Positions 38,604 to 48,560 of a DNA stretch of 64,000 bases are shown piece after piece (position 1 is the stretch's first letter; every line of letters starts with the position of its first letter). Source of the DNA: Parvibaculum sp. GTDB taxonomy: Bacteria; Pseudomonadota; Alphaproteobacteria; Parvibaculales; Parvibaculaceae. Under the pieces are notes generated by a model. It was not told where the DNA came from. It did not search any database and saw nothing but the letters and a program-made list of their open reading frames with translations. The DNA is taken from positions 1 through 64,000 of the forward strand of contig NZ_JAUYUS010000058.1 in the NCBI RefSeq assembly GCF_030694575.1, written 5' to 3'. The position numbers were made by a program, and so were the translations under genes.

Positions 38604-40607
38604 ATGAGCAAGGGTAGTGAAAACGGCGCGGGCGGTCCGAAAAAGGACCAGCCCTGGATTTTCCGCACCTATGCCGGCCATTCGACGGCCAAGGCCTCGA
38701 ACGAGCTTTACCGGACGAACCTGTCGCGTGGCCAGACGGGTCTATCGGTCGCTTTCGATCTGCCGACGCAGACGGGCTACGACAGCGATCATGCTCTCGC
38801 GAAGGGCGAAGTCGGCAAGGTCGGCGTGCCTGTCTCCCATATCGGCGACATGCGGGCGCTGTTCGACGGCATTCCCATGGAGCAGATGAACACCTCCATG
38901 ACGATCAATGCGACGGCGGCCTGGCTGCTGGCGCTCTATATCGCCGTCGCCGACGAGCATGGTGCGGACCGCGCGAAGCTCCAGGGCACAGTGCAGAACG
39001 ACATCATCAAGGAATATCTCTCGCGGGGCACTTACGTGTTTCCGCCCGATCCCTCGATGCGGCTCCTCACCGACATCGTCTCCTACACCTACACGCAAGT
39101 GCCGAAGTGGAACCCCACCAACGTCTGCTCCTATCATCTGCAGGAAGCGGGCGCGACGCCGGTGCAGGAACTCGCCTTTGCGCTGGCGACGGCGCAGGCC
39201 GTGCTCGACCGCGTCAAGGCAGGCGGGCAGGTGCCGGAGAAGGATTTTCCGCAGGTCGTCGGCCGCATCAGCTTCTTCGTCAATGCGGGCGTGCGCTTCA
39301 TCACCGAGATCGCCAAGATGCGGGCCTTCGTCGATCTGTGGGACGAGATTTGCCGCGACCGCTACGGCGTCGAGGACGCGAAGCTCCGCCGCTTCCGCTA
39401 TGGCGTGCAGGTGAATTCGCTCGGCCTCACCGAGCAGCAGCCGGAGAACAACGTCTACCGCATCCTGCTCGAAATGCTGGCCGTCACGCTGTCGAAGAAC
39501 GCGCGTGCCCGCGCCGTGCAGCTTCCGGCATGGAACGAGGCGCTCGGCCTGCCGCGTCCATGGGACCAGCAATGGTCGCTCCGCGCACAGCAGATCCTCG
39601 CCTATGAAAGCGACCTTCTCGAATATGGCGACATCTTCGACGGGTCGAAGGTGATGGATGCGAAGGTCGAGGCGCTGAAGGCCGAGGCCCGCGAGGAGCT
39701 GGCGCGCATCGAGGAGATGGGCGGGGCGGTCGCCGCCGTCGAGAGCGCCTACATGAAAGAGCGTCTCGTCGAATCCAATTCCGCGCGGCTCGAAGAAATC
39801 GAGGCCGGACGGCAGGTCGTGGTCGGCGTCAACAGATACGAGGAATCGGCGCCGTCGCCGCTCTCCACGGGCGCGGGCTCGATCCATGTGGTCGATGCAG
39901 GCGTCGAGGCGGAGCAGATCGCGGCGCTGAAGAAGTGGCGCGAGACGCGCGACGCCGCCGCGGTCGAAGCCGCCCTTGCCGATCTTCGCCGCGCGGCGAA
40001 AGAAGGCCGCAACATCATGGAGCCCTCGATCGTCTGCGCCAAGGCGGGCGTCACGACCGGCGAGTGGGGCACGGCGCTCCGCGAGACCTTCGGCGAGTAC
40101 CGCGCACCGACGGGTGTTTCGAAGGCCGCGCGCAATGCACCGGGCGATCTCGACAAGGTGCGTGAAATGGTCGAGGCGGTTTCGTCCAAGCTCGGGCGCC
40201 CGCTGAAATTCCTCGTCGGCAAGCCGGGCCTCGACGGCCACTCCAATGGCGCCGAGCAGATCGCTGTGCGCGCCCGCGACAGCGGCATGGATGTCGTCTA
40301 TGAGGGCATCCGCCTCACGCCGGAGCAGATCGTGAAAGCGGCGCAGGACGGCGAGGTCCATGTCGTCGGCCTCTCGATCCTCTCGGGCAGCCATGTCTCG
40401 CTGGTGACGGAACTGATGGACCGCATGCGCGAGGCGGGCCTCTCCGGCATCCCGGTCGTTGTCGGCGGCATCATCCCGCCGGACGACGAAGAGATACTCC
40501 GCGCCGCCGGCGTTGCCGCGATCTACACGCCGAAGGATTTCCAGATCAACGACATCATGGCCGATGTGGTCCGCCTCGTGGACTACAACACGGACGAGGC
40601 GGCGTGA
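38604..40607 (+). CDS. ecm: Ethylmalonyl-CoA mutase (adenosylcobalamin-dependent)
   Basis: Converts ethylmalonyl-CoA to methylsuccinyl-CoA. The single-chain 667-residue protein has a mutase TIM barrel (RGQTGLSVAFDLPTQTGYDSDH; MNTSMTINATAAWLLALY) and a C-terminal B12 domain with D544-G-H546-S-N-G, the DxHxxG cobalamin motif. It resembles MeaA/Ecm rather than methylmalonyl-CoA mutase by length and by GEYRAPTGVS. Start 38604 follows GAGGT. Together with ccr and mcd it supports an intact EMC route. Confidence 0.93.
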   Translation: MSKGSENGAGGPKKDQPWIFRTYAGHSTAKASNELYRTNLSRGQTGLSVAFDLPTQTGYDSDHALAKGEVGKVGVPVSHIGDMRALFDGIPMEQMNTSMTINATAAWLLALYIAVADEHGADRAKLQGTVQNDIIKEYLSRGTYVFPPDPSMRLLTDIVSYTYTQVPKWNPTNVCSYHLQEAGATPVQELAFALATAQAVLDRVKAGGQVPEKDFPQVVGRISFFVNAGVRFITEIAKMRAFVDLWDEICRDRYGVEDAKLRRFRYGVQVNSLGLTEQQPENNVYRILLEMLAVTLSKNARARAVQLPAWNEALGLPRPWDQQWSLRAQQILAYESDLLEYGDIFDGSKVMDAKVEALKAEAREELARIEEMGGAVAAVESAYMKERLVESNSARLEEIEAGRQVVVGVNRYEESAPSPLSTGAGSIHVVDAGVEAEQIAALKKWRETRDAAAVEAALADLRRAAKEGRNIMEPSIVCAKAGVTTGEWGTALRETFGEYRAPTGVSKAARNAPGDLDKVREMVEAVSSKLGRPLKFLVGKPGLDGHSNGAEQIAVRARDSGMDVVYEGIRLTPEQIVKAAQDGEVHVVGLSILSGSHVSLVTELMDRMREAGLSGIPVVVGGIIPPDDEEILRAAGVAAIYTPKDFQINDIMADVVRLVDYNTDEAA

Positions 40608-40809
40608 CGCGTCCCGGACGCGATCACATTCCTGCCATATTCCCATAATGTTTCCGCCGCATTGGAGTCCTTCAATGGGACAGGTTGTTAAGGTGTGGCG
40701 GGCTTCTCCTCTCTCGACGATCCGATTTTTCGCGGAGTCCGCTTGCCTTTCTTCCGGTGTTACACTTTTCGGGTATTAACGCGGGATGTGTCAGGAAAGG
40801 ACCGGGCTG

Positions 40810-41112
40810 ATGAGCGACGGCTTCGAGACGAGTAGCGGCAAGGGCCCCCAAGGCCAGAACCAGACGGGCCAGAACCAGACGGCATGGGCCTATGGGCGCA
40901 GCGTCGAGCCTCTTCCCGAGCTTCACGTGTTCTCCCGCCTTTCGGAACTCGACTCCGCCTATGCCTCCGAGCTTGCCCGGCGTCGCGCGCGGCAGGAGAC
41001 ACTGGAAAGGGAAATTCTCGAACTCGCGAAACGTCTCGCCGCGCCGCTCGAAGGGGCGGTCGCGGAGGCGCCCAAGCGCAAGGGCTTCTTCGGCCGGAGG
41101 GCGAAGGCATGA
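40810..41112 (+). CDS. Small charged protein, first gene of an unrecognised operon
   Basis: A 100-residue soluble protein: Gln-rich N-terminus (QGQNQTGQNQT), a likely coiled coil (about 42-75: ELDSAYASELARRRARQETLEREILELAKRL region), and a basic tail KRKGFFGRRAKA. The next protein carries a near-identical GFLGRR motif at residues 288-293, suggesting contact with a shared partner. No family recognised. An ATG at 40786 is also in frame. Its stop overlaps the next start by 4 bp. Confidence 0.7.
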   Translation: MSDGFETSSGKGPQGQNQTGQNQTAWAYGRSVEPLPELHVFSRLSELDSAYASELARRRARQETLEREILELAKRLAAPLEGAVAEAPKRKGFFGRRAKA

Positions 41113-42239
41113 ACAGCCGGGTCTCTCTCATCTCCGAAGACATGCGCGGACAGATGACGCGCAATTACGTGGCGAGCGAGCGCGAGGCGCGGTTCGCCAG
41201 TTTCCATTTTCTGGCCTTCCTGATCGTCGGTCTCATTGCGCTCGGCGCGCTGGTCGTCGATTACATGATCGTCAGCGAATTCTGGACGCGGGCGCTCGCC
41301 AACGAATTCCTCGAACTGCCGGGCGCGCTCGGTTCCTCCGTCGCCTTCAAGTCGATGCAGGTTCTCTTCGCCACCGTCGCGGCGCATATCCTCTACGAGC
41401 AGCTCGGCGCCTTCGGCAAGGCGCTCTTCGTGCGCATCGTCTTCGTGCTCGCGCTCGCCATGCTGCTCGGCGTCGGCCTTCTGCTGGCGCTGATGTCGCT
41501 GCCGAACGGCGTCGCGGCGACAAGCGACGGCGGCGTCGGCTCGTCGCTCGGCAACGCGCTGGCCGGCCTCGGCATCGCGACCGAGGCGACGCAGGAAACG
41601 GCGCGCACGGCCAGCGAAGTCGATCAGATGCGCGGCTGGCAGCCTCTTGCGTGGATGGCCTCTCTCGGCATCGTCTTCCTCGTCGTCACGGGCGTTGCCG
41701 CTCTTTGCATCCACTATGCGGTGCAGTCGCTTCGCCGCGTATTCCAGGCGCGCGATTTCAAGCACCGCCGCGTCGAGATGGAGCGGCTCGCCGCACTGGA
41801 AGCGGAGTATGACGGCAATCGCCATTCGCTTTCCGAAATGGAAGGCCCCGAGAACCGGCGGCATCTGTTGTGGACCGGCCTCATGCGCGAATGCCGGAGC
41901 TACGAGCAGGGCCTCGAAGAGGCGCGGCGGCAGGGCAAGACGGCGCTTTCGAACGGTTCCGGCGGCCGCGGCTTCCTCGGCCGGCGCAAGGAGCCTGCGC
42001 TCCTCAATGGCGCGGCCTCGCAATTCTCCGACCGGATGAAGGCCTGCGAGGAATCGCGGCATCTCGCGCGTTATGAAAAGCTGTTCGACGACTGGTGGGC
42101 GCGGCGCTCGCGCAATGCCATGAAGGCTGGGCCCGCGCGTCTCGAGGCGGTGCGTGAGCCGATCGGCGAACTGCTGCCGCCAAGCAGCGGACCGCGCCGC
42201 ATTCCGGGCCAGACAACCAGCTTCACGGCCGGCGAATGA
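41109..42239 (+). CDS. Four-helix membrane protein, second gene of the operon
   Basis: A 376-residue membrane protein with helices near 33-55, 77-98, 106-131 and 179-204, and a long cytoplasmic C-terminal region (205-376) of charged helices containing GRGFLGRRKEP. No family recognised. It overlaps both neighbours by 4 bp (ATGA), so the three genes are translationally coupled. The gene before contributes a small coiled-coil protein and the gene after a secreted MIDAS domain, so it may be the membrane core of a complex. Confidence 0.75.
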   Translation: MNSRVSLISEDMRGQMTRNYVASEREARFASFHFLAFLIVGLIALGALVVDYMIVSEFWTRALANEFLELPGALGSSVAFKSMQVLFATVAAHILYEQLGAFGKALFVRIVFVLALAMLLGVGLLLALMSLPNGVAATSDGGVGSSLGNALAGLGIATEATQETARTASEVDQMRGWQPLAWMASLGIVFLVVTGVAALCIHYAVQSLRRVFQARDFKHRRVEMERLAALEAEYDGNRHSLSEMEGPENRRHLLWTGLMRECRSYEQGLEEARRQGKTALSNGSGGRGFLGRRKEPALLNGAASQFSDRMKACEESRHLARYEKLFDDWWARRSRNAMKAGPARLEAVREPIGELLPPSSGPRRIPGQTTSFTAGE

Positions 42240-42916
42240 GCATGCGTCACGGGCGGACCTTGTTTGCAGGGGTGCTGTTTGCATGGGCGCTGACAGGCGC
42301 CGCCGCGGCCGTCGATGCGCCCGCGCCGCCGCAGACCGTCGTGGTCGGACTCGATATTTCAAAGAGCAATCCGCTGGTCGAGGATCCGGCCTATGCGGCG
42401 CGTGTCGCCAAGCGCCTCACCGCCGAGATCGACAAGCTGCCCGTTCGCTCGCGCCTCATGGTGCGGACTTTCGGCGCTTACGATTCAAGCGCCAATCCGC
42501 TCAAGATCGACGAGGTGATTTCGGCGCGCGCCCGGCCGGAGACGGTGGCCGAAGGCGTATCCGCGCTTGTCGCGGCCATGCCGCAGCTCGTCAAAGAGGG
42601 CAAGCTCCAGGCACAGGACTGGACCTATATCGTGTCTTTCATGGAAACCATGTCGCAGCAGGTCGACTGCTCGGCGGGCGATGTCCGCTTCATCCTGCTG
42701 ACGGACGGTATCGAGGATTCGACGATCGCCCGTATGCAGCGCGGCGCTTCGCTGCCGAAGCCGGAACCGATCTTTGCCGGATGCGGCGAACTTCTCATGC
42801 TCGGTGTCGGGCAGGGCGGCGGCAGCCCCGCCGTCACCAGGCGCGTGCAAGAGCAATGGGCGGGCTGGGCCGAGGCGGCGGGCTTCCGCAAGTTCACGGG
42901 TCTCTACGACTGGTAG
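42236..42916 (+). CDS. Secreted von Willebrand A-like protein, third gene of the operon
   Basis: A 226-residue protein with signal peptide (MSMRHGRTLFAGVLFAWALTG; cleavage near AAA-VDA). The mature part starts as a vWA fold: VVVGLDISKS has the MIDAS triplet D40-x-S42-x-S44, and RFILLTDGIEDS supplies the TDG motif. It probably binds a divalent metal and a protein ligand in the periplasm. Two later Cys may form a disulfide. No named family fits. Confidence 0.75.
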   Translation: MSMRHGRTLFAGVLFAWALTGAAAAVDAPAPPQTVVVGLDISKSNPLVEDPAYAARVAKRLTAEIDKLPVRSRLMVRTFGAYDSSANPLKIDEVISARARPETVAEGVSALVAAMPQLVKEGKLQAQDWTYIVSFMETMSQQVDCSAGDVRFILLTDGIEDSTIARMQRGASLPKPEPIFAGCGELLMLGVGQGGGSPAVTRRVQEQWAGWAEAAGFRKFTGLYDW

Positions 42917-42983
42917 TGTTTTGACGGCATGAATGGCGGCCTATAAGGTCCGCCCGCCTTTCACCCGCCGCCCGGAACACCCG

Positions 42984-43931
42984 ATGAATGTTGCCCTCAG
43001 CCTCGTGCTGCCGATCTTCGGCATCATCGCCTTCGGCTATTTCGGCGCCCGCACGAAGCTCATCAGCCATGCGGGTGTCGACGGGCTCGACACCTATGTC
43101 TTCACCTTCGCCATGCCGGTGCTGCTGTTCCGCAATCTCGCGGGAACGGAATTTCCATCGTCGCTGCCCTGGGGTCTCTGGATTTCCTATTACGGCGCGA
43201 TGCTCGCCGTCTGGGCGGCGGGGTCGCTGATCGCGCTTTTCATTCTTCGCCGTCCGGCTTCCGATGCGGTGATGCTCGGCTTCGGCTGCGGCCAGGGCAA
43301 CACGATCATGCTCGGCCTGCCGATCATCCTCACCGGCTTCGGACCGGAAGCGGGCACGCCGGTCTTCCTCATTCTCGCCTTCCACGGGATCATTCTCTTC
43401 ACCATCGCGACCTTCCTGCTGGAATTGACGCGTACGCGCGAGGGCGAGGAGTTGCCGAGTTTCGGGGCAATTCTGAAAGAGGGTCTGGTCAACACGGCGC
43501 GCAATCCCGTCATCATCGGCATTGCCTGCGGTGTCGTTTACGGCCAACTCGGCGTGCCGCTTCCCGGCATCGTCGACACGACGCTTGAAATGATCGCGCG
43601 CTCGGCCATTCCCTGCGCGTTGTTCGTGCTCGGCGCCATGCTCACGCGCTACAGCATCCGCCGCTCGGTCGGCGCCGCCTCCATCACGACCTTCTTCAAG
43701 CTCACGGTTCATCCCGCGCTTGTCTTCGCGATGACGCAGTATGTGTTCGAGCTGGAGCCGCTCTGGGTCACGGCGGCGACGCTGCTTGCCGCCATGCCGA
43801 CCGGGGTCTATTCCTCGATCCTCGCCAACCGATACCGGGCGGCGCCGGGCGCGGCGTCGAGCACCGTGGTGCTCTCGACCGGCATCAGTCTCGTCACGCT
43901 GACGATCCTGCTCGGATATTTCCTCGGCTGA
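42984..43931 (+). CDS. AEC (auxin efflux carrier) family transporter
   Basis: A 315-residue inner-membrane carrier with about ten helices and the AEC pattern: MNVALSLVLPIFGIIAFGYFGARTKLI at the start, GCGQGNTIMLGLPIIL in the middle, and a repeat-like second half ending STVVLSTGISLVTLTILLGYFL. Substrate unknown. Start 42984 chosen on the family N-terminus. Convergent with the acyltransferase, 2 bp apart. Confidence 0.87.
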   Translation: MNVALSLVLPIFGIIAFGYFGARTKLISHAGVDGLDTYVFTFAMPVLLFRNLAGTEFPSSLPWGLWISYYGAMLAVWAAGSLIALFILRRPASDAVMLGFGCGQGNTIMLGLPIILTGFGPEAGTPVFLILAFHGIILFTIATFLLELTRTREGEELPSFGAILKEGLVNTARNPVIIGIACGVVYGQLGVPLPGIVDTTLEMIARSAIPCALFVLGAMLTRYSIRRSVGAASITTFFKLTVHPALVFAMTQYVFELEPLWVTAATLLAAMPTGVYSSILANRYRAAPGAASSTVVLSTGISLVTLTILLGYFLG

Positions 43932-43933
43932 TT

Positions 43934-44986
43934 TCAGTCGCCGCCGGCCGCCATCACGATGTTCGGCTTGCGGGCGCGCGGTGTCGTCAGCCGGAACATG
44001 TCCGGCCGGACGAAGGCGAAACCGAGCGGCGTATTCTCGACCAGCCTGAAGGCGAGGATCGGCGTCACGACGGCTATCGTCGTCGAGATCAGCGTAATGA
44101 GATCGCCATTGTCGAGGCCGAGCCTGGTCAGGACGATGCGCATGGTCGCCATGGGCAGGAAGAACGTGAGAAAGACATAGAGAGAATGACGGCCGACATA
44201 GGCGATCGGTCCGGCAAGCCCGCGCGATGCGAGCAGACTTACCAGCATGATCGCGCTTCCCGCGCCGGCGAAGCCCATCAGCAACTCGAGCGCGCGGATG
44301 TCGACCAGATGCGAGAAGACGACGGTGCCGACGCAGGCAAGCATGAGGCCCGCAAGACCCGCCGACTTCGCCGGGTAGACGCGCGCCCAGTCCGCGATCT
44401 GGAATATCTGCTTTGCGCCATAGACGCCGGTAACGAACCAGATGAAGCGCCAGGCGAATTCGTCCAGCAGCATCCAGCCCGTATCGAGCCGCGTGAAATA
44501 AAGCGCGAGAGCGAAGAAGAAGACGAAGAAAGGCCGCGCCTCGCGCAGCAGCCGCATGGTGACGAAGAACATCGCGAGCGAATAGATGAACCAGAGCACG
44601 GCGAAAGGCTGGATCGGGATCATCAGCAGGTCGACATAAGTGACCTGCCATGCGCCTTCATGGGGGATCATCTTGATGCCGATCTGGATGACCGACCAGA
44701 GCACGTAGAAATAGGCGAAATGGACGATCTTGCCGTCGACGAATTTCCGCAGGTCGCCGAACAGCGCCTTGTAGGCGAAGAGGCCGGCGACGAGGAAGAA
44801 GAGCGGCATCCGGAAAGGTTTCGCGAACTCCGCGATCGCACCGAAAACGAGCGGCATATGGCCGATGGCATTCGAAACGCCGAAGGTCGTGTGTTCCATC
44901 ACGACCAGAATGATCGTCAGGCCTTTTGCCGTATCGATCCAGTTAATGCGCTGTTTCGAAACAACCGATGTGCTTGCGCCGGCCAT
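43934..44986 (-). CDS. Acyltransferase-3 family membrane protein
   Basis: A 350-residue protein with about ten helices; INWIDTAKGLTIILVVMEHTTFG has the conserved His of the family, and FRMPLFFLVAGLFAYKA the Arg motif. Members acylate surface sugars, LPS or osmoregulated glucans. The target is unknown. Confidence 0.85.
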   Translation of the reverse strand: MAGASTSVVSKQRINWIDTAKGLTIILVVMEHTTFGVSNAIGHMPLVFGAIAEFAKPFRMPLFFLVAGLFAYKALFGDLRKFVDGKIVHFAYFYVLWSVIQIGIKMIPHEGAWQVTYVDLLMIPIQPFAVLWFIYSLAMFFVTMRLLREARPFFVFFFALALYFTRLDTGWMLLDEFAWRFIWFVTGVYGAKQIFQIADWARVYPAKSAGLAGLMLACVGTVVFSHLVDIRALELLMGFAGAGSAIMLVSLLASRGLAGPIAYVGRHSLYVFLTFFLPMATMRIVLTRLGLDNGDLITLISTTIAVVTPILAFRLVENTPLGFAFVRPDMFRLTTPRARKPNIVMAAGGD

Positions 44987-45112
44987 TGAGGGCTCCTGAG
45001 GCTCGAAAAAATACGGTTTCTGTCCCTTTGGGGGATGAAAACCGGTTCTTGAAGCTTCAGAAGCAGCTTTCGCGCCAGACGGGCGGGCCGGGCGTTCATG
45101 GTTAAGGGCGGC

Positions 45113-46015
45113 TTAAAGACCTACCATCCGCCGGATCTCCACCGGTGTATGTCCGGCGGAACGGAGTTCCCTCAGGCCCATGTCCTTCGCGCTTTTGGAC
45201 AGGCGCCGCCCCGTTTCGTCGCGGATGAGACCGTGATGGCGATAGCGGGGCTCGGGCAGGCCAAGCAGCACCTGCAGGATGCGGTGAATGTAGGTTGCCG
45301 GAAACAGGTCCTGGCCGCGCGTCACGAGCGTCACGCCCTGCAACGCATCGTCCACCGTGACCGCCAGATGATAGCTCGTCGGCACATCCTTGCGGGCGAC
45401 GATGACGTCGCCGAAGAGTTCGGGCTTCACCTCCAGCGTGCCGTTGTCTCCGCCCGGACTGATGCCTTCCTCGTGAAAGGTCACGGGCGCACCCGTCATC
45501 GTTTCCGCGATGCGAAGCGCCTTCTCCGTGTCGAGCCGCCAGGCATAGCTGCGGCCTTCCCACATCAGATGGTTGCGGCGCTCGCGCGAAATTTCCTTGT
45601 AGATGCCCGGATAGACCGGCGCGCCGTCCGGGTCCACCGGCCAGTTCCGGAGGGGAATGCCGGAGGCGGCGATGGCGTCGTTGATTTCCTTTCTCGTCGC
45701 GAAGCAGGGATAGACGACATCGAGTTGCTGCAGGCGCCTCAGCGCCTTTTCGTAATCGTCGAAATGTTCCGACTGACGGCGTACCGGCCGTTCCCATTCG
45801 ATGCCGAGCCAGGCGAGGTCGTCGTAAATGCCTTGCTCGTATTCCGGGCGGCAGCGGCCGGTATCGATGTCCTCGATGCGAAGCAGGAAGCGTCCGCCGA
45901 GCGTCTTCGCCAGATCGAAGGCGAAAAGCGCGGAATAGGCATGACCGAGATGGAGCCAGCCGTTGGGGCTCGGCGCAAAGCGCAGAACCTCGGGCCCGCC
46001 TGTCTTCTCCTGCAT
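45113..46015 (-). CDS. gluQ: Glutamyl-Q tRNA(Asp) synthetase
   Basis: Loads glutamate onto queuosine at tRNA-Asp position 34. The 300-residue GluRS-like catalytic core has APSPNGWLHLGHA (HIGH motif) and RRLSKSAKD (KMSKS-type), but no anticodon-binding domain. The usual zinc cysteine cluster is not seen beyond a single Cys in YPCFATRKE. Start 46015 (MQEKTGG) chosen because upstream residues show no homology. Divergent from the esterase. Confidence 0.87.
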   Translation of the reverse strand: MQEKTGGPEVLRFAPSPNGWLHLGHAYSALFAFDLAKTLGGRFLLRIEDIDTGRCRPEYEQGIYDDLAWLGIEWERPVRRQSEHFDDYEKALRRLQQLDVVYPCFATRKEINDAIAASGIPLRNWPVDPDGAPVYPGIYKEISRERRNHLMWEGRSYAWRLDTEKALRIAETMTGAPVTFHEEGISPGGDNGTLEVKPELFGDVIVARKDVPTSYHLAVTVDDALQGVTLVTRGQDLFPATYIHRILQVLLGLPEPRYRHHGLIRDETGRRLSKSAKDMGLRELRSAGHTPVEIRRMVGL

Positions 46016-46097
46016 TGAAACCCCGGCTTCGAGAGGCTTAGTGTGGGCCGCATTGATAGCCCGCATGGGCGCGTGGCGGAAGAGGAGGCGTGGAACG

Positions 46098-46772
46098 ATG
46101 ACGTTGAGCGGACCGGGCGTGGCGGCGGCAAGCGGCCGGACGAAGCAGCTTGTCATCCTCTGTCACGGCTATGGCTCGGATGGCGACGACCTCATTTCGC
46201 TCGCGCCCTATTGGCAGCGGCTGATGCCCGACGCCGCCTTCGTCGCACCCAACGCGCCCGCGCGCTGCGACGGCAATCCGATGGGCTACCAATGGTTTCC
46301 GATCTCGCGGCTCGATCCGTCGGAGATCGAGCGCGGGGTCGATGCGGCCGCGCCGCTGCTCGACCGGTTCATCGACGATCAGTTGAAGCTGCGCGGGCTC
46401 GACGGGTCGCAACTCGCTCTTGTTGGGTTCAGCCAGGGCACCATGATGGCGCTTCATGTGGGGTTGCGGCGGGAGATCGCGCCGGTCGGCATCCTCGGTT
46501 ATTCGGGCGCCCTTGCCGCTCCCGAGCGTCTCGCCGCCGACCTCAGGTGCCGTCCGCCGGTCCTGATGGTCCATGGCGATATCGACGACATGCTGCCGGT
46601 TTCGCGCATGCATCAGGCGGTTCAGGCGCTGGGAGAGGCGGGGCTTTCGGTGCAATGGCATGTGTCGCGGGGCCTCGGACACAGCATCGACCAGACAGGG
46701 CTCGACCTCGGCGGGCGTTTCCTTGCCGACGCCTTTGCCGGCAGGCTGGCCGGCGCGGCTGTAACGGGTTGA
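46098..46772 (+). CDS. Phospholipase/carboxylesterase (alpha/beta hydrolase)
   Basis: A 224-residue hydrolase of the YpfH/acyl-protein thioesterase type. LCHGYGSDGDDL forms the oxyanion region, VGFSQGTMMAL has the nucleophile Ser (GFSQG), MVHGDIDDMLP the Asp and GLGHSID the His. The substrate is not clear. ATG 46098 follows GGAACG and removes an unrelated extension. Divergent from gluQ. Confidence 0.85.
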   Translation: MTLSGPGVAAASGRTKQLVILCHGYGSDGDDLISLAPYWQRLMPDAAFVAPNAPARCDGNPMGYQWFPISRLDPSEIERGVDAAAPLLDRFIDDQLKLRGLDGSQLALVGFSQGTMMALHVGLRREIAPVGILGYSGALAAPERLAADLRCRPPVLMVHGDIDDMLPVSRMHQAVQALGEAGLSVQWHVSRGLGHSIDQTGLDLGGRFLADAFAGRLAGAAVTG

Positions 46773-46881
46773 GCCGGGGACCAGGAGTTGGCGGCTTCAC
46801 AAAGCCGTCGCACCAGATATAGTAAGATCAGGCAGTTGAGAGGCCGGTCGTTTTGAAGCCCTATGGCCTCAGGAGGGTGGC

Positions 46882-47442
46882 GTGCACGGAACGTTTGCCG
46901 CGCCGGATGCTTGTCCGGCTCTTGTCTTGAATGCGGATTACAGGCCGCTCAGCTACTACCCTCTGTCGCTCTGGTCATGGCAGGACGCGATCAAGGCGGT
47001 GTTTCTCGACCGCGTGAACATCGTCTCGTCCTACGAAACGCTTGTGCGCTCTCCGACCTTCGAAATGCAACTGCCGAGCGTCGTCTCCCTGAAATCCTAT
47101 GTGAAGCCGACGCGCTTTCCGGCGTTCACGCGGTTCAATCTTTTTCTCCGCGACCGCTTCACCTGCCAGTATTGCACCGCGCGGCACGAGCTTACTTTCG
47201 ATCACGTGATCCCGCGCTCGCGCGGCGGGCAGACGACGTGGGAAAACGTCGTCACGGCCTGCGCGCCCTGCAATCTCAAAAAAGGCGGCAAGATGCCGGA
47301 GCAGGCGGCGATGTTTCCGATGCAGGCGCCGTTCCGGCCGTCGGTGAGCGATCTGCACAAGAACGGCCGCGCGTTCCCGCCCAACTATCTGCATGAGAGC
47401 TGGCAGGACTATCTCTACTGGGACAGCGAGCTGGAGCCGTAA
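46882..47442 (+). CDS. HNH endonuclease family protein
   Basis: 186 residues starting with GTG, 5 bp after AGGAGGG. It contains the HNH core with zinc Cys pairs CQYC and CAPC and the FDHVIPRSRGG...WENVVTAC block. N-terminal LVLNADYRPLSYYPLSLWSW is typical of a widely conserved bacterial group thought to act in DNA repair or RNA/DNA processing; it is not clearly a mobile or phage enzyme. Confidence 0.88.
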   Translation: MHGTFAAPDACPALVLNADYRPLSYYPLSLWSWQDAIKAVFLDRVNIVSSYETLVRSPTFEMQLPSVVSLKSYVKPTRFPAFTRFNLFLRDRFTCQYCTARHELTFDHVIPRSRGGQTTWENVVTACAPCNLKKGGKMPEQAAMFPMQAPFRPSVSDLHKNGRAFPPNYLHESWQDYLYWDSELEP

Positions 47443-47448
47443 GGCCCG

Positions 47449-48030
47449 TCAGACTTTTTCGGAGACCTTGATCGCAAGCCGGCAGGCGGCCTTGATCGCG
47501 CCGGACAGCAGCGGATAGGCGGGCGCTTCCTTCGCGCCGGCTTCTATCGCCTCGTCGCGATGCTGTACTTCTTCCAGGCGGAACTTCTCGATCGTGTCGC
47601 GAAGCGGCTCCTCCTCTTCGCCCATCTGGTCGAGCCGGTTCACCTGCGACCGATAATGTTCGTCGATCACTTCTTCCACGGCGGCGGTGCAGGCATGCGC
47701 AGCCTTCTCGCCGAGCAGCGCCGTTGCTGCGCCGAGCGCAAAGCCCGCCACATGCCAGACCGGCGCGAAGGCCGTCGGCCGCACGCCGCGTTCGTTCACG
47801 ATTTCGCTGAAGCGCGCGAGATGGACTTCCTCGTCCTTCGCCATGCGCTCGAGCGCGGCGGCGATTTCCTGCTTGTGGGGCAGGTAGCGGAAGACGGCGC
47901 GCTGGCCTTCATAGATGCGCACCGCGCCATACTCGCCCGCGTGGTCGACACGGATCATTTCCTCGATGGCGGCATCGCGCGCGCGGCCGGGCTGCGCGGA
48001 GACGCGGGGCGTTTTCGGCGTGGCGGGCAT
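47449..48030 (-). CDS. coq7: COQ7-type demethoxyubiquinone hydroxylase
   Basis: Diiron monooxygenase adding the last hydroxyl of ubiquinone. The 193-residue protein has EEMIRVDHAGEYGAVRIYEGQ, KDEEVHLARF, EEVIDEHY and LEEVQHRDEA, giving the Glu/His ligands (E..ExxH twice). It overlaps the dsbB stop by 1 bp and ends 7 bp from the convergent HNH gene. A COQ4 family gene lies at 53.4 kb. Confidence 0.92.
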   Translation of the reverse strand: MPATPKTPRVSAQPGRARDAAIEEMIRVDHAGEYGAVRIYEGQRAVFRYLPHKQEIAAALERMAKDEEVHLARFSEIVNERGVRPTAFAPVWHVAGFALGAATALLGEKAAHACTAAVEEVIDEHYRSQVNRLDQMGEEEEPLRDTIEKFRLEEVQHRDEAIEAGAKEAPAYPLLSGAIKAACRLAIKVSEKV

Positions 48031-48560
48031 CAGACCTCTCCTCTGCTCTCACGGAAATAGCGCAGCAGGGGCAGGGCGGAAAGGGCGGCGAGCGCCAAAG
48101 TGATGAGCATGTTGAACCCCGCCAGCGAAATGCCGAACAGCCGCCATGCGGCATCGTCGCAGCGCGGTGCCTTCGCGCCGCCATGGAGTGCCGACTGCAA
48201 ATCCTCGAGCGAGTTGGCGACGAGGCCGCCGGCGCCGCAGGTGTCGGGTCCCGGCCACCATTTGTACTCGACGCCCACATGGTAAAACGACAGGCCCGCC
48301 CCGGCGAGATAGGCCAGCAGGCAGAGCCCGAGAAAGACCAGGACGCCGATGCCGATATTCGCCTCGCGCGACAGGATGCCCGCGATCAGCGCCGCCCCGA
48401 TGGCGAAATAATGCGGCTGGCGGCCCTGCAGGCAGAGCGAGCAGGGCACATATCCAAGCACATGCTCGAAAAAGAGCGCGCCCGCGAGGGTGGCGACGCT
48501 CACGGCGATCAGGATCCAGGGGATGGCGTTCGAGGGGATGCGTTCCGTCATGGGCGGCAT
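48030..48560 (-). CDS. dsbB: Disulfide bond formation protein B
   Basis: A 176-residue four-helix membrane protein reoxidising periplasmic DsbA with quinone. First pair C40/C43 in VPCSLCLQGRQPHY; second pair in PDTCGAGG and APRCDDAAW. Position before coq7 suggests cotranscription. Confidence 0.88.
   Translation of the reverse strand: MPPMTERIPSNAIPWILIAVSVATLAGALFFEHVLGYVPCSLCLQGRQPHYFAIGAALIAGILSREANIGIGVLVFLGLCLLAYLAGAGLSFYHVGVEYKWWPGPDTCGAGGLVANSLEDLQSALHGGAKAPRCDDAAWRLFGISLAGFNMLITLALAALSALPLLRYFRESRGEV

Follow-up and report, generated by a model that had tools for sequence, protein, structure and literature searches.

A short run of three overlapping genes in a Parvibaculum-like alphaproteobacterium raises the question of what the genes build and whether they build it together. 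They lie on the forward strand of the window, by which we mean the whole 64,000-nucleotide stretch of DNA analysed here, and a preliminary description had taken them for an unrecognised three-gene unit with a membrane part and an exported part that carries a MIDAS. Sequence comparison upholds that description and shows conservation in alphaproteobacteria: the unit exists, its genes are strictly linked, and it has no name; its VWA subunit is well supported, and the fold of its membrane subunit is an unrecognised one. It is an ordinary unit, one among many uncharacterised conserved operons, and it is of interest for its clean pairing of a MIDAS with a membrane protein and for the exchange of its VWA gene. 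The host is called Parvibaculum-like because, among named relatives, those closest to gene 3 come from Parvibaculum records (78-86% identity).

Results

Gene layout and family searches

All three genes are read from the forward strand: gene 1 (40810-41112, 100 aa), gene 2 (41109-42239, 376 aa) and gene 3 (42236-42916, 226 aa). The frame coordinates bear out the proposed 4-bp ATGA overlaps, which fall at 41109-41112 between genes 1 and 2 and at 42236-42239 between genes 2 and 3. The stretch between ecm and gene 1 showed no consensus promoter or terminator, a result that says little in so GC-rich an organism.

Profile scans of the window's three proteins against Pfam, NCBIfam, PHROGs and PADLOC gave weak hits and no acceptable match, in agreement with the earlier statement that no named family fits. 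The same outcome was reached when all 73-74 family members were scanned one by one against Pfam and NCBIfam; genes 2 and 3 represent two protein families for which neither collection holds a model. One such weak hit on the VWA protein, Dioxygenase_N (E 0.0036), fell below the family cut-off. A PDB sequence search with the single VWA protein returned nothing convincing, and a search with a VWA profile returned weak VWA hits only (Plasmodium TRAP, E 0.016; RGLG1, E 0.19). When 398 genomes of the phylum were searched with a profile, the window's own genome alone matched, and our literature search found no paper naming this cassette. We also considered an anti-phage defence system, which is not supported: PADLOC hits to the three proteins were at chance level, gene 3 had no match in plasmids or phages, and the chromosomal position is fixed.

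The VWA domain of gene 3

The AlphaFold2 model of gene 3 (pLDDT 88.1, pTM 0.83) adopts the alpha/beta fold of a VWA domain. Foldseek returned many VWA domains among the best matches to this model, and VIA-align scored it against VWA structures at Z 11-12, up to 12.3, with Z 11.5 over 152 residues at 3.2 A for CMG2. A full MIDAS accompanies the predicted fold. Its DxSxS motif, here DISKS (residues 40-44; 42353-42367, forward strand), contributes D40, S42 and S44; the threonine is T130 (42623-42625, forward strand), and the aspartate is D157 (42704-42706, forward strand), the central residue of a TDG at residues 156-158. An alignment of 73 homologues (41-85% identical to the window's protein) has 22 invariant columns, and all five MIDAS residues are among them, a degree of conservation that places the predicted MIDAS far beyond chance. 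With fold and residues both present, gene 3 is, as modelled, a divergent VWA domain of the MIDAS-type superfamily.

The N-terminus of gene 3 reads as a signal peptide, and the protein is thus predicted to be exported, as the preliminary description had proposed when it noted the DxSxS and TDG motifs; some distant homologues have an apparent uncleaved anchor. C183 is invariant and C145 nearly so, and an invariant Asp-Trp forms the end of the protein. The chain stops at residue 226, three residues past the last strand (219-223), and an integrin-type alpha-7 C-terminal helix is absent from the model. Ligand binding by integrin I domains is relayed through this C-terminal helix.

The membrane protein and its detached domain

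Hydropathy marks four hydrophobic segments in gene 2, at about residues 32-50, 77-95, 110-128 and 183-201. The second is a weak one, with a mean hydropathy of 1.4, but a helix occupies it in the modelled fused homologue. The C-terminal tail carries 32 K/R, so the predicted four membrane helices and charged tail agree with what had been claimed for this protein. Hydropathy and charge fit an arrangement in which both ends are inside and loops 1 and 3 are outside. Thirteen positions are invariant in 70 homologues (D51, I54, W59, K81, Q84, V85, F87, A88, H93, G123, F190, V193 and A198), and two more are acidic almost without exception, position 57 being E/D in 70/70 and position 66 in 69/70. Both acids, E57 and E66 in the window, belong to the putative first periplasmic loop (residues 53-75; 41265-41333, forward strand).

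We modelled a fused homologue (L100; mean pLDDT 82), in which long helices dominate, one of them a 78-residue helix that begins as TM4 and continues into the tail, where it would be cytoplasmic. A fold search of the membrane-protein model against PDB and viral structures gave no match with an E value below 0.001, and the highest VIA Z was 7.2; in this modelled form the best matches are generic long helices, and it is conceivable that the searches missed a fold. A MotA/ExbB proton channel was considered for gene 2 and is unsupported by family profiles: the MotA/ExbB/TolQ Pfam families were not among the matches of 74 family members at E 0.01. These proteins were also not among the fold matches, a comparison that says little, since long helices yield generic hits only.

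Gene 1 had been described as a separate coiled-coil partner, a reading that the comparison of loci overturns. In three Candidatus Phaeomarinobacter-type genomes (L046, L047 and L100) a single frame consists of gene 1 followed by gene 2 (profile match E 1.6e-26), whereas in Parvibaculaceae loci, the window included, gene 1 has its own frame immediately upstream of gene 2. Because the two are fused in Ca. Phaeomarinobacter, gene 1 is, by sequence comparison, the N-terminal domain of gene 2 and no independent partner; it is predicted to be helical and cytoplasmic. A profile built from both forms assigns its positions 4-73 to gene 1 and 72-352 to gene 2 in the window, a partly circular result, as the profile contains gene-1 rows. 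The membrane protein of other families often has an N-terminal extension at the place of gene 1, and a suggestive similarity of this extension to gene 1 is not significant (E 0.2-0.8 in L118, L150 and L152).

Both proteins do contain the GF[F/L]GRR motif on which a common partner had been proposed, as GFFGRR at residues 92-97 of gene 1 (41083-41100, forward strand) and GFLGRR at residues 288-293 of gene 2 (41970-41987, forward strand). The basic-aromatic end of gene 1 is kept across Parvibaculaceae (GFFGRR, GFFSRR, RWFGR, RWFRR). The gene 2 motif is limited to the genus (G[FL]LG[RK][RK], including GFLGKR and GLLGRR; also FLGMR and FLGLR) and absent from the other genera of the family, and because it is unconserved beyond the genus the shared motif is weak evidence for a common partner. 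We would rather see in it the end of a linker, basic and aromatic in character and perhaps in touch with the membrane surface, than proof of a shared partner.

Linkage and neighbourhood

At 75/75 informative loci the gene immediately upstream of the VWA gene is that of the membrane protein; the remaining 4 named loci are contig ends. In a sample of the class, genes 2 and 3 occur in the same 17/289 alphaproteobacteria; an extra weak gene 2 hit in one further genome (G084; E 3.9e-4, 104 residues) is probably due to chance. Within the genus the VWA gene was found in 21/25 genomes, and gene 2 was found in none of the four that lack it, two of which are incomplete. In a genome of the same genus that is 100% complete (G006), the match to ecm runs as far as 43812 and that to the transporter begins at 43847 of the same contig (C8); the two nearly abut, and genes 1-3 are therefore cleanly missing there. 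We found no genome with only one of genes 2 and 3 intact. In two genomes (G226, locus L111, and G684) the membrane-protein gene is present twice, and in the former each copy has its own VWA gene, in tandem. The genes are kept and lost together. Cultured carriers include Parvibaculum indicum, Tepidicaulis marinus and Rhizomicrobium electricum.

The copies in such duplications of the membrane protein-VWA pair as a tandem unit have diverged (L048, 902-4667; L111, 6721-10505).

The surroundings of the pair are old and stable, with ecm upstream in 47/79 loci and gluQRS downstream in 72/79; transporter and acyltransferase genes stand between cassette and gluQRS in only about 25/79. Across the alphaproteobacterial loci the pair is always adjacent and no known system was found beside it, so the idea of an unrecognised unit withstood neighbourhood analysis. 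A longer block, ecm - cassette - gluQRS - carboxylesterase - HNH - COQ7 - DsbB (38604-48560 in the window), keeps its order in many alphaproteobacterial families.

A discordant history of the VWA gene

For each flanking gene tested, one of ten relatives (genome G013) ranks nearest, alone or in a tie, with identities of 96% for ecm, 92% for gene 2, 96% for the transporter and 97% for HNH. The VWA protein departs from this pattern, being 72% identical to that of G013 and 88% identical to that of the more distant G010. At the DNA level, the 92-95% identity to G013 gives way to 72-79% across the VWA gene (42100-42900) and recovers beyond it, with sharp drops at both ends. The VWA data reject a clade of the window and G013 (p-AU 4e-64), and the gene 2, ecm and transporter data reject one of the window and G010 (p-AU 1e-5 to 4e-4), values that are optimistic, as the clades were chosen after the identities were known. 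The pattern in the sequences is clear: the VWA gene alone is discordant with its neighbours, as it would be after recombination. The VWA alleles fall into two classes that are distinguished by 12 sites, two of which lie next to the MIDAS residue T130. That the VWA gene appears swappable without its membrane partner suggests that contact between the two would rest on conserved residues and that something else met by the VWA protein varies.

Discussion

How might the two proteins work? The reading we favour, tentatively and as somewhat short of probable, is that they form one inner-membrane complex linking periplasm and cytoplasm, in which the MIDAS metal sits on E57 or E66 of gene 2 and the whole acts as an envelope sensor or relay. 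Gene 2, together with its detached domain gene 1, would cross the membrane four times and have two cytoplasmic ends, and a helical stalk on that side would be built from gene 1 and the prolonged TM4. The exported gene 3 would sit on the periplasmic face, its MIDAS metal most likely binding one of the two acids of periplasmic loop 1; formation or rupture of that contact, or competition for it, would shift the membrane helices and hence the stalk. The VWA domain has no C-terminal relay helix, and the relay would therefore run through gene 2. A precedent for such docking is CaV1.2, in which Asp-181 of the first extracellular loop anchors alpha2delta-1 (PMC5655503); the likeness would be an analogy of working, not of kinship.

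We infer the complex, its topology, the docking residue, and the relay and its direction. In support we count the VWA fold, the conservation of the MIDAS, the fusion of gene 1 with gene 2, strict linkage, joint loss and paired duplication, together with the conserved acids 57 and 66 and residues D51, K81, Q84 and H93 of gene 2. Against it stand the lack of a known fold in gene 2 and of any recognised cytoplasmic output domain, and the missing relay helix of the VWA domain. The exchange of the VWA gene without gene 2 also counts against it, as a tight, co-evolved interface might resist such exchange, though the contacts proposed here are conserved residues.

The same residues can be read differently. 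The invariant D51, K81, Q84 and H93 lie at or inside the first two predicted membrane helices, and alpha2delta itself serves a channel (PMC5655503), so that gene 2 may be an ion or proton conductor which the VWA protein, as an auxiliary subunit, stabilises or gates. However, no match of gene 2 to a channel family or fold was found, and its charged residues may instead stabilise helix packing, and we consider conduction rather unlikely. The VWA protein could also look outward. VWA domains often bind foreign ligands, and adhesion is one of their several roles. That frequency, the exchange of the VWA gene alone and the differences between allele classes beside T130, as if facing a variable partner, would suit a protein that binds the cell wall or an outer-membrane or foreign protein while gene 2 only anchors or senses. 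Yet no repeats, outer-membrane partner gene or sorting signal were seen, and, unlike typical adhesins, the protein keeps its MIDAS face and its C-terminus under strict conservation even in distant families. Such a ligand is thus unlikely in our view, and nothing we found favours adhesion among the roles of VWA domains, contrary to the adhesion-like periplasmic part first envisaged.

A chaperone-like pair that assembles another envelope or metal protein, in the manner of VWA proteins with MoxR ATPases, has its model in NorD and similar VWA proteins, which act so and need surface carboxylates on their target (PMC9976466). Here, however, the VWA protein is exported, away from ATP; none of the ten flanking window genes named by Pfam is AAA+, and the pair has no fixed metalloprotein neighbour beyond the old shared synteny, which makes this role very unlikely. 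That the genes are adjacent merely as residents of an old chromosomal block, with no complex between them, seems hardly likely at all: the surrounding order is indeed conserved (gluQRS in 72 and ecm in 47 of the 79 loci), but the flanking transporter and acyltransferase come and go while genes 2 and 3 are never apart, and the pair shares its presence, its losses and its duplication. Returning to the favoured sensor or relay complex, we can also frame a bolder version of the pairing, in which an ion-conducting or signalling bacterial membrane protein of new fold is controlled by a separate, alpha2delta-like periplasmic MIDAS subunit that is exchanged between species by recombination; taken as a whole, we regard that as quite unlikely.

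Strict linkage makes genes 2 and 3 a unit in many alphaproteobacteria, and its position in the chromosome is mostly the same. Should a metal mediate the docking of the VWA protein on its membrane partner, the pair would offer a minimal bacterial model of VWA control of membrane proteins, and its presence in cultured organisms opens the idea to experiment.

Several known systems invite comparison. CMG2/ANTXR2, integrin I domains and Plasmodium TRAP share with gene 3 the VWA fold and a complete MIDAS; gene 3 differs from them in being bacterial and exported, in lacking the C-terminal helix and in having no Pfam or NCBIfam family match. The MoxR AAA+/VWA couples (NorQ-NorD, RavA-ViaA) likewise contain a bacterial VWA protein whose gene belongs to a conserved pair, whereas the present unit has no flanking AAA+ gene, exports its VWA protein and pairs it with a membrane protein. 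A further analogy is with alpha2delta on voltage-gated calcium channels, where a similar extracytoplasmic MIDAS VWA domain sits beside a multi-helix membrane protein whose first outside loop bears conserved acids, as that of gene 2 appears to do (PMC5655503). We claim no kinship, as gene 2 has no recognised channel fold and gene 3 is a VWA domain alone, with no cache domains; what the two systems may share is a way of working.
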